In this document: positions 29,864 to 32,207 of the stretch, piece after piece
Layout: the number at the start of each line of letters is the position of its first letter
Position numbering within the stretch: the stretch's first letter is position 1
NCBI GenBank assembly: GCA_029936675.1
Contig: JAPYSB010000003.1
Location: 217,489-281,488 of the forward strand
Reading direction: 5' to 3'
Source: Dehalococcoidia bacterium
Lineage (GTDB): Bacteria > Chloroflexota > Dehalococcoidia > Lucifugimonadales > UBA826
DNA: 64,000 bases
Notes under the pieces: generated by a model
What the model saw: the letters and a program-made list of their open reading frames with translations, nothing else
What the model was told of the DNA's origin: nothing
Databases searched by the model: none
Position numbers and translations under genes: made by a program

Positions 29864-30835
29864 TTAATCTTTCCAATCATTTCCTTGGGATATTTCATTT
29901 ACGATTTTTTCTGAGTAAACCCATAATTTTTCTGCCATTACTTGATCTTTTCCGTGTGTCGAAGCTTCCTTTATGTTGCAGTTTGAAAAATATTTTCCGT
30001 TGACCCTTTTGAGATCTGGATGAGCACTGACATATATTTGAGTGGCGGCTCCCTCGTGAACATTTTTGAAAAGCAATTTTTCTATTATGATTGATCCATA
30101 CTTGATGACAGGATTGTAATGTCGTAGCAGATTAGTCCTGATAACGCCTGGGTGGACAGCGTTGGCTGTCTGGTTAGTGGTTTGGAGCCGTTTGGCCAGT
30201 TCAATAGCGAACAAGAGATTCGCTAGTTTGGAGTGACCATAAGCTTTCTGGGGGCTGTAATGTTTGTTGCCAGAAAAATTATCGAACTGAATCCCATCGT
30301 GATAAGAAAATACTTTGTGCGCGGAGCTTGATACAACAGTTACTCGTGCTTTGTTCGTCAGAATCGGACCCAATAGGCTGACTAGCATAAAATGACCAAT
30401 ATGATTGGTCAAAAATTGTAGTTCCACACCATGTTTTTGTTGCAACTTGGGCAGTGCCATGATCCCAGCATTGCAAATTATAGAATCTATCTGAGTGCCT
30501 GATCTAACCAAATCTTCAGCGGATTGGGTAATCGAACTAGGTTCTGAAAGGTCGCACTCTAGAGGGATGAACTGCTCATTTGCGACTGACCTTACTGAGT
30601 TAGCTTTCTCAATTGTTCTAGCCATTCCAATGACGGTAGCTCCCCTGAGAGACAGAACTCTTACTGTTTCCAACCCTAGGCCAGAATTGGCTCCAGTGAC
30701 CACGATTGTTTTGTTTTTGAGGTCGAGTGACTTCGTTGCTTCTTCTCCAGTTGTGTGAAATCCCAAACCGTTGGCTCCAACCTTGCTGAAACGATCCATA
30801 AAGGGAATTCGTGAGCTAGCCAATGTTTCTAACAA
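29864..30835 (-). CDS. SDR family oxidoreductase (retinol dehydrogenase-like)
   Basis: A 323-residue short-chain dehydrogenase of the WWOX/retinol-dehydrogenase type: TGANSGLGLETVRVLSLRGATVIGMAR (cofactor motif), SIICNAGIMALP, catalytic VSSSAHKV and YGHSKLANLLFAIELAKRL (Tyr and Lys) and AVHPGVIRTNLL. NADP(H) is likely because of the Arg after the second strand. About 35 extra N-terminal residues precede the fold; the true start could also be the ATG at residue 13. It precedes the deleted LLM gene by 15 bases. Substrate unknown. Confidence 0.85.
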   Translation of the reverse strand: MLETLASSRIPFMDRFSKVGANGLGFHTTGEEATKSLDLKNKTIVVTGANSGLGLETVRVLSLRGATVIGMARTIEKANSVRSVANEQFIPLECDLSEPSSITQSAEDLVRSGTQIDSIICNAGIMALPKLQQKHGVELQFLTNHIGHFMLVSLLGPILTNKARVTVVSSSAHKVFSYHDGIQFDNFSGNKHYSPQKAYGHSKLANLLFAIELAKRLQTTNQTANAVHPGVIRTNLLRHYNPVIKYGSIIIEKLLFKNVHEGAATQIYVSAHPDLKRVNGKYFSNCNIKEASTHGKDQVMAEKLWVYSEKIVNEISQGNDWKD

Positions 30836-30868: not shown

Positions 30869-31360
30869 TTAATATTCATACACTGCACACTTCTCGCAAA
30901 TTTGTTCCGGAATAAGGCCTACTGAAATTAGAAATTTGAAGACCTTACATCCGAAGCAGTAACCCATTACGGCCTCCAGAAATGCAAATGCACTCAGAAT
31001 GGATAGTAAAACTATACTCATAACGTTTAGACCAATTAGCCATAAGGTTAAAATTGATATGGAAAATACCAACCCAATACTTTGGGCAAAACGCTTGGGT
31101 GGGCCCGGAACTAATTTTTCTTCAAAATTCAATTTGGGAACCAAAATCTTGGTAACGACTAAAGCCAACGGACTTACTTTTGGCCCAAATAAAACTCTGA
31201 CCAAAAATCCATAAACCATTACCGACAAGATTATCAAAACGAAGGTTACTTCCAATCTGATTAATCCAATAGATATAAGTGACATCAATAGCACACCAGA
31301 GGCAACTAGTCGTGCTGCTGGTTCATTGATCAATTCTGGGAACGAAAAAAACTTCTTCAT
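30869..31360 (-). CDS. DUF4395 family membrane protein
   Basis: A 163-residue protein with four predicted membrane helices (about residues 17-35, 38-56, 87-105, 110-128) and the C-terminal cluster YCFGCKVFKFLISVGLIP followed by EQICEKCAVY. Cysteine pairs CFGC and CEKC are typical of the family, which is often encoded with thiol or sulfur redox genes. It is directly downstream (13 bases) of the peroxiredoxin gene, so both are probably co-transcribed under the Cys-codon leader upstream. Role unproven; a membrane thiol-transfer role is a reasonable inference. Confidence 0.85.
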   Translation of the reverse strand: MKKFFSFPELINEPAARLVASGVLLMSLISIGLIRLEVTFVLIILSVMVYGFLVRVLFGPKVSPLALVVTKILVPKLNFEEKLVPGPPKRFAQSIGLVFSISILTLWLIGLNVMSIVLLSILSAFAFLEAVMGYCFGCKVFKFLISVGLIPEQICEKCAVYEY

Positions 31361-31373
31361 ATCTACCCGAGCC

Positions 31374-32027
31374 TTATAAATTAGGCTGAGGGGTGGTTCG
31401 AAGGTATTCTTTTACTATTGTGTGCCCTTTCGGAAATTTGCTAGGAATGTCTTTGGTGGCTACGGCTGGTACAACTATGCAATCTTGTCCATCTTCCCAG
31501 TCAGCAGGCGTAGCGACTTGGTAGTTGGCCGTAAGTTGAAGGGAATCTAAAACTCGCAGAATTTCGCTGAAATTTCTTCCCGTAGATGCAGGGTAGGATA
31601 TGATTAATTTTACCAATTTGTCGGGTCCAATAATGAAAACGGACCTAACTGTTAAAGTATCGTTTGCATTCGGATGGATCATCCCATAGGCATCTGCTAT
31701 CTCTTTCTTGGGATCTTCTACAAGAGGGAAGTCGACATTAGCATTCTGGGTTTCATTTACGTCTTTTATCCATTCAATATGTGATTCCAGGGGAGTCAAA
31801 TTGGCTTTTGTACCAACACTCACTACTAACACCTTCGCGCCCCTTTTAGTGAATTCTGATTTTAGGTTCGCCACCCTTCCTATTTCGGTGGTGCACACTG
31901 GGGTGAAGTCGGCTGGGTGAGACATGAATACACCCCATTGGGTGCCAAGCCACTCATGAAAAGTTATTTGACCCTGGGTTGTATTTGCTGTGAAGTTTGG
32001 GGCTTCGTCTCCAATTCTTAAACTCAT
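31374..32027 (-). CDS. Peroxiredoxin (1-Cys, Prx6 type)
   Basis: A 217-residue Prx6-type thiol peroxidase. The peroxidatic Cys is Cys45 in SHPADFTPVCTTEIG, Thr42 and the Arg in TVRSVFIIGPD complete the site, and the C-terminal arm (WEDGQDCIVVP...IVKEYLRTT) matches the dimerisation and late-Cys region of archaeal-type enzymes. It reduces hydroperoxides with electrons from thiols. The ribosome-binding site TAGGAGG is 6 bases before ATG and immediately follows the terminator stem at 32043-32070. It leads the operon with DUF4395. Confidence 0.93.
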   Translation of the reverse strand: MSLRIGDEAPNFTANTTQGQITFHEWLGTQWGVFMSHPADFTPVCTTEIGRVANLKSEFTKRGAKVLVVSVGTKANLTPLESHIEWIKDVNETQNANVDFPLVEDPKKEIADAYGMIHPNANDTLTVRSVFIIGPDKLVKLIISYPASTGRNFSEILRVLDSLQLTANYQVATPADWEDGQDCIVVPAVATKDIPSKFPKGHTIVKEYLRTTPQPNL

Positions 32028-32101
32028 TTTATCCTCCTAATGAAAAGACCCCGCTTCAGCGGGGTCTTTTACTTGATCAACTAGTCTTAATTAATCAACG
32101 A
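32028..32101 (-). promoter_or_regulatory. Attenuator region between leader ORF and peroxiredoxin
   Basis: In the 302-base gap between the peroxiredoxin start (32027) and the + strand membrane gene (32330), the minus-strand order is promoter, 21-codon leader ORF, this spacer, terminator stem, ribosome-binding site. The leader's final codons (CGGGGT, 32112-32107) can pair perfectly with ACCCCG (32065-32060) in the 5' arm of the terminator. The same codons can instead pair with CCGACC (32127-32122) just upstream. The two structures exclude each other, as in amino-acid attenuators. Nothing else recognisable occupies the gap. Confidence 0.6.
32043..32070 (-). terminator. Perfect terminator stem directly before the peroxiredoxin ribosome-binding site
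   Basis: AAAAGACCCCGC / GCGGGGTCTTTT form a perfect 12-bp stem with a four-base loop, with four T closing the minus-strand transcript. It lies 16 bases upstream of the peroxiredoxin ATG and 31 bases past the leader ORF stop. It cannot terminate a protein-coding operon from upstream, because none reads into it from the minus strand except the short leader, so an attenuator role is more likely than an ordinary operon end. Confidence 0.85.
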
Positions 32102-32167
32102 TCAATACCCCGATCCTCGTGGGTCGGTACAACAAGAACAGTTGCATGTGCATATTAAATCATTCAT
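32102..32167 (-). CDS. Cys-rich leader peptide upstream of peroxiredoxin (21 codons)
   Basis: A 21-codon ORF starting with ATG at 32167. Residues 6-13 read CTCNCSCC, five cysteines in eight codons, followed by TDPRGSGY. The last codons overlap the region that can pair with the terminator arm. No ribosome-binding site is present; the promoter candidate (32178-32207) would start transcription three to four bases before the ATG, so translation may be leaderless. The position before a terminator stem and a thiol-peroxidase operon is that of a cysteine-sensing leader peptide. The peptide may also be a small metal-binding protein. Confidence 0.6.
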   Translation of the reverse strand: MNDLICTCNCSCCTDPRGSGY

Positions 32168-32177
32168 TTCAGTGACA

Positions 32178-32207
32178 ATCGTAAAACACTTGCCAATAAG
32201 TTTTCAA
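32178..32207 (-). promoter_or_regulatory. Candidate promoter of the leader ORF-peroxiredoxin operon
   Basis: On the minus strand TTGAAA (32207-32202) and TACGAT (32183-32178) are 18 bases apart. The leader ORF ATG follows ten bases after the -10, giving a 5' leader of about three or four bases. It matches the layout at 8252-8280. Confidence 0.42.

Follow-up and report, generated by a model that had tools for sequence, protein, structure and literature searches.

A putative cysteine-codon transcription attenuator upstream of a Prx6-type peroxiredoxin operon in Dehalococcoidia

Within the window, the whole 64,000-nucleotide stretch of Dehalococcoidia DNA analyzed here, a short open reading frame (ORF) dense in cysteine codons is followed by an intrinsic terminator and then by a peroxiredoxin gene. 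This arrangement raises the question of whether an antioxidant enzyme is placed under the control of ribosomes that stall at Cys codons, as proposed in an earlier note that described the locus as trp-type attenuation sensing cysteine. The proposal was largely supported, with the qualifications that the protector helix is weak, an untranslated leader favors the antiterminator, and sensing of Cys-tRNA is inferred. It is very likely that the locus is a ribosome-mediated transcription attenuator sensing charged Cys-tRNA, a conclusion in which leader translation, stalling by uncharged Cys-tRNA, and termination or read-through are all inferred, as there are no expression data.

The leader and its operon

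Read along the minus strand, the locus consists of promoter-like boxes, the leader ORF, a terminator stem, an AGGAGG sequence, and genes for a Prx6-type peroxiredoxin, a DUF4395 protein, and a short-chain dehydrogenase (SDR) (Table 1). Cysteine is specified by codons 6, 8, 10, 12, and 13 of the leader ORF (five of the eight codons from 6 to 13), and 31 nt separate the end of the ORF from the terminator stem. The positions that the earlier note had assigned to the leader ORF, its Cys codons, CGGGGT, the terminator stem, and the ribosome-binding site of the peroxiredoxin gene were all confirmed. The RNA folding it had suggested as a check gave a z score of -4.66 for the leader RNA relative to shuffled sequences, with 0 of 200 shuffles as good, and the alternative fold states fit the proposed logic. 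The peroxiredoxin is close to solved Prx6-type enzymes. The claimed peroxiredoxin-DUF4395 operon probably extends further, to the SDR gene, which holds third place in each of the five genus members.

A detector that required a Cys-dense ORF of no more than 45 codons with an intrinsic terminator within 110 nt downstream matched three places on both strands of the 64 kb, including the leader locus. The others were a 6-codon chance match and an antisense ORF within the 5' end of the peroxiredoxin gene that shares the palindrome; this ORF (MKSYLTLGCICCEVWGFVSNS, window positions 31956-32021, plus strand) faces the palindromic terminator and is probably due to chance. An Rfam search of the window returned only two tRNAs above the gathering score, located elsewhere in the window, with no riboswitch or T-box match, and an NCBIfam search with the leader peptides gave no meaningful match. 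A DNA pattern of five consecutive Cys codons was tried as a search key and dropped, as CTG repeats overwhelmed the matches.

The promoter proposed at 32207-32178 held only in part. By itself the pattern is no better than chance (2 found versus 1.4 expected), and it gains weight only from its conservation in the genus: all five members retain the boxes, as TTGA[AT]A and TA[CG]GAT, with a gap of 10 nt between the -10 box and the leader ATG. A -10-like hexamer at the same spacing was present in 5 of 10 independent leaders, compared with 1.8 expected (P about 0.017). Transcription is predicted to start approximately 3 nt before the leader ATG, which would likely yield a near-leaderless transcript; this is inferred from sequence alone, without a measured start site.

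Table 1. Features of the attenuator locus, in window coordinates
Feature	Position	Strand	Description
Sigma-70-like promoter	32178..32207	-	TTGAAA-18-TACGAT; boxes and spacing to ATG kept in genus
Leader ORF	32102..32167	-	MNDLICTCNCSCCTDPRGSGY, then stop; 21 codons; read from sequence, kept in genus
Proposed protector strand	32122..32127	-	CCGACC; weakly supported
Antiterminator strand	32107..32112	-	CGGGGU, last leader codons; invariant in genus; pairs with 32065-32060
11-bp hairpin	32073..32098	-	Draws antiterminator strand and terminator 5' arm together; fold model
Intrinsic terminator	32043..32070	-	Perfect 12-bp stem AAAAGACCCCGC-TGAA-GCGGGGTCTTTT, UGAA loop
Shine-Dalgarno of peroxiredoxin	32033..32038	-	AGGAGG; 3' of terminator stem
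Prx6-type 1-Cys peroxiredoxin	31374..32027	-	PVCTTE, Cys45; Pfam AhpC-TSA and 1-cysPrx_C; ATG at 32027
DUF4395 protein, second gene	30869..31360	-	PF14340, E 1.4e-30
SDR, probable third gene	29864..30835	-	Pfam; genus conservation

Distribution of Cys leaders in the order

Sampling of 60 relatives and then of 250 genomes of the order provided 69 loci encoding a peroxiredoxin of this type, 16 of which were positive with the detector. Two more were added by eye, one in G012 (GCC; the terminator contains an N) and one in G085 (of the DDLFHLC type described below), giving 18 peroxiredoxin loci with a leader and terminator in 11 genera and 9 families. No phylogenetic correction was applied to the conservation counts, apart from the thinning of loci, in some comparisons, to roughly one per genus. 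Among 80 similar peroxiredoxin loci from outside the order, mostly Bacteroidota, Nitrospinota, and Nitrospirota loci from a contig scan, two matched the detector and one looks real. A Chitinophagales (Bacteroidota) MAG (L061) carries MSNSLKISMYNCCCCMKIYRKE and a terminator 5' of a peroxiredoxin gene at 2501; this leader may possibly have arisen independently or been transferred. A scan of viral contigs for the peroxiredoxin identified no relatives.

Within the genus, the 21-codon ORF is present in five of five members without indels, flanking DNA does contain indels, and the 3' part of the peptide (CSCCTxxxGSGY) is conserved. Across all leaders only close-set Cys codons recur, up to six in a row, in peptides that are otherwise very different: CCCCCC in G115 and G117, CCCNCC in G111, SCCTCC in G030, CCC in G123 and G124, and CRC in G026. 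Nonconservation in relatives, which according to the earlier note would have spoken against attenuation, is refuted: relatives share the ORF with its Cys codons, the terminator, and the pairing of leader with terminator, either by conservation or by covariation.

This variety bears on a rival explanation in which the nascent Cys-rich peptide binds metal or is oxidized and thereby alters ribosome progress, so that copper or thiol oxidation would be sensed as in CutF/CruR-type copper-responsive leaders, which have a Cys-rich upstream ORF in cis, CXXXCXC, and a proline-rich C-terminal arrest motif (PMC9973294). In its favor, CTCNCSCC resembles a metal-binding peptide and literally contains CXXXCXC, and a redox or metal signal would fit a peroxiredoxin. 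However, CXXXCXC is not found in G001, G006, G004, or most other leaders; the peptides range from CCCCCC to KGCCR to LCSC, with Cys codons alone in common; the poly-Cys leaders lack a proline-rich arrest motif; and the neighboring genes belong to sulfur metabolism, not copper. We regard this explanation as unlikely and retain Cys-codon attenuation as the preferred reading.

All nine DUF4395-coupled peroxiredoxin loci of the order have a leader. DUF4395 was ruled out as the cause of the leader association by nine leader-bearing peroxiredoxin loci without it. At one locus of G040 (L015), the peroxiredoxin gene is followed not by DUF4395 but by a gene resembling a YeeE/YedE sulfur transporter, and in G011 (L293) a peroxiredoxin gene without its own leader lies just 3' of a ThiF/MoeB-type gene (ThiF at 2684).

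Cys leaders with terminators were also found 5' of cysH/sulfite reductase genes in G022, G016, G021, G019, and G064, the last with a VCCCCC leader (L275). In the class beyond this order, such leaders are uncommon at cysH, preceding it at 3 of 29 loci. One locus of G022 (L235) has two tandem Cys leaders (at 139 and 292; CACTCC and CSCMCCCTC), each with a terminator, before a cysH-type gene. No PF01507 (PAPS-reductase) or PF01077 (NIR_SIR) match was found in the genome from which the window derives, and seven genus mates had no NIR_SIR match and only weak, partial PF01507 matches in three; control genomes were positive in both searches. From these results we infer that the genus probably depends on reduced sulfur. 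The cysK (PALP)/ThiF-type loci fetched from the genus showed no convincing second Cys leader.

A second type of leader, M(R)[FY]xDDLFHLC, was located by pattern in the 250 genomes of the order; elsewhere in the class it is rare, the sample including a single genome from another order that carries it. With a terminator, it precedes sulfite reductase, cysH, and ThiF genes as well as cysteine-dioxygenase-like, rhodanese-YedE, and lipoprotein-DUF4395 genes, and in G023 and G085 it precedes the same peroxiredoxin. The fuller peptide is M(R)[FY]xDDLFHLC[ST]xPP, with the leader starting at about 1480 in most loci (loci of this type are L164, L166-L169, L171, L174-L177, L193, L225, L226, and L228-L230). 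Upstream of the peroxiredoxin gene of G042 (L012) there is an apparently decayed leader, MKTRYKDDLFHL followed by a stop, in which DDLFHL is followed directly by the stop; no terminator is present, as if the two had been lost together. The argument that both report cysteine or sulfur status rests on either leader type being found in front of one and the same gene. A bolder reading is that two leader types are interchangeable across a single sulfur/thiol regulon in the order, with the same terminator/antiterminator logic. DDLFHLC, which is kept by peptide sequence and not by a codon run, would then be an arrest peptide responding in the ribosome to cysteine or to a sulfur metabolite, and the operon in the window would be a poly-Cys member. 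Taken jointly, these propositions are tentative, and the balance tips slightly against them.

Pairing, predicted folds and proposed mechanism

The earlier note had proposed that CGGGGT (32112-32107) pairs with ACCCCG of the terminator 5' arm, and this held, the pairing covarying across genera. Leader segments paired with the terminator arms of their own loci had a mean of -11.3 kcal/mol, compared with -8.6 kcal/mol for permuted arms, and 0 of 20,000 permutations reached the own-arm value; about one locus per genus was used, with both members of the same-genus pairs L113 and L115 and L160 and L157 included. Against dinucleotide-shuffled leader segments, the pairing at 17 peroxiredoxin loci (five of them from one genus, and one the Chitinophagales control) gave a combined Fisher P of 1.5e-8. 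Such pairings include GUGGGGG/CCCCCAC in G012 and a long one, AGAGGUUUCUUU/AAAGAGACCUC, in G030. No significant leader:terminator pairing was found for the peroxiredoxin leader of G026 (L011), and across the nine cysH/sulfite reductase leaders taken together it did not reach significance (P about 0.1).

A hairpin that merely ends an upstream transcript, or an ORF that is an independent small-protein gene, would leave the peroxiredoxin unregulated. The stem is nearly palindromic and could terminate in both directions, as this alternative would have it. However, it is all but excluded by the covariation of the ORF end, pairing strand, and terminator arm across genera and by the leaders at every DUF4395-coupled peroxiredoxin locus. 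An attenuator thus remains the favored interpretation.

Folds were computed for each ribosome position, with and without the terminator 3' arm. With a ribosome at any Cys codon and the 3' arm not yet made, the antiterminator has a predicted probability of 0.92 to 0.98, the terminator 5' arm ACCCCG being shared between the two structures. A ribosome at the stop codon masks the antiterminator strand and the 5' arm of the 11-bp hairpin, leaving the terminator as the sole possible fold. The claim that stalling at Cys codons gives the antiterminator, and a ribosome at the stop codon the terminator, therefore held in the predicted folds. Once the full stem is available the terminator is favored in every state (probability > 0.999), and thus the switch must be kinetic. 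In an untranslated leader the antiterminator is predicted to form first, giving read-through, unlike in trp.

The protector fared less well. The claimed pairing of CCGACC with CGGGGT was corrected to CCGA/UCGG plus CC/GG, which forms only weakly when the terminator arm is present: in the nascent state, the fold model gives the protector-antiterminator strand pairing a probability of 0.03 to 0.18 while the terminator 5' arm is free. A stronger version of the helix was seen in G040, judged by inspection only. That a stalled ribosome must cover CCGACC to free CGGGGT is consequently not well supported; the model predicts that the protector helix is unnecessary, occupancy of the antiterminator strand by the ribosome likely being enough.

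The same folds allow for translation-coupled antitermination without Cys specificity, in which read-through would follow whenever the leader ribosome is slowed or translation is under general stress, as the antiterminator is predicted in every state except that with a ribosome at the stop codon. However, without Cys specificity one would not expect Cys codons to be enriched repeatedly, both at these leaders and at sulfur genes, in peptides that otherwise differ, and this alternative is very unlikely.

For the Cys-specific attenuator, sequence and comparison show the component parts and how they are conserved, the covariation in pairing, and, as predictions, the alternative folds; that Cys-tRNA is the signal was not measured and is inferred from the codons. 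In the proposed mechanism, translation of the 21-codon ORF by a ribosome would accompany transcription of the leader by RNA polymerase. With ample Cys-tRNA, the ribosome would run to the stop codon and cover CGGGGU and the adjoining hairpin; ACCCCG would then be free for the CGGGGU of the terminator 3' arm, and transcription would end before the peroxiredoxin gene. When Cys-tRNA is scarce, the ribosome would stall at the Cys codons, and the leader CGGGGU would pair with ACCCCG before the terminator 3' arm is made, allowing read-through into the peroxiredoxin, DUF4395, and SDR genes. The physiological reason, again inferred, is likely a need for peroxide defense and sulfur scavenging when cysteine or thiols are depleted, in an organism whose genome yielded no sulfate-assimilation genes. 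If this is true, an uncultured bacterium would switch on a peroxide-detoxifying enzyme when cysteine is short, and ribosome stalling at Cys codons may serve as a thiol-stress sensor. With the covarying arms known, small reporter constructs could be used to test each step.

Comparison with known systems

The literature searched contained no description of a Cys transcription attenuator that places an intrinsic terminator upstream of a peroxiredoxin gene, and a search joining Chloroflexota, transcription attenuation, and leader peptide found no paper. This agrees with the earlier statement that poly-Cys attenuation is known in mycobacteria and none is known at a peroxiredoxin in this group. As in CutF/CruR leaders, a Cys-rich ORF lies upstream in cis. 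Unlike in those, there is no conserved CXXXCXC, proline-rich arrest motif, or downstream copper gene, and covariation with a terminator is found instead.

With trp and his attenuators the locus shares a leader peptide containing control codons, an intrinsic terminator before the first gene, and mutually exclusive antiterminator and terminator structures, the antiterminator using the terminator 5' arm; the downstream gene is likewise predicted, without expression data, to be read only on stalling. It differs in that the control codons are for Cys, the target is antioxidant rather than biosynthetic, and the protector (1:2) helix is weak, so that an untranslated leader is predicted not to super-terminate.

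In mycobacteria, ribosome-occupied Cys ORFs have been identified upstream of cysA2 (Shell et al. 2015, PMC4633059), poly-Cys leaderless ORFs act by translation attenuation (Canestrari et al. 2020, as cited in PMC13236596), and candidate Cys leaders have no conserved terminator (Seliverstov et al. 2005, PMC1262725). The leaders described here resemble the mycobacterial poly-Cys ORFs in being short, clustered in Cys, and 5' of sulfur or thiol genes, at several operons in one group of organisms. A near-leaderless start, predicted here as probable from sequence alone, would be a further similarity. They differ in that no structure hides the downstream Shine-Dalgarno sequence, AGGAGG lying outside the terminator stem, and in having an intrinsic terminator and antiterminator between the ORF and its gene, with a Prx6-type peroxiredoxin as the target. 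What is new here is a clear transcription-attenuation form of the known regulation by Cys leaders; it occurs across many families within a single order and is linked both to sulfur assimilation and to a peroxiredoxin.
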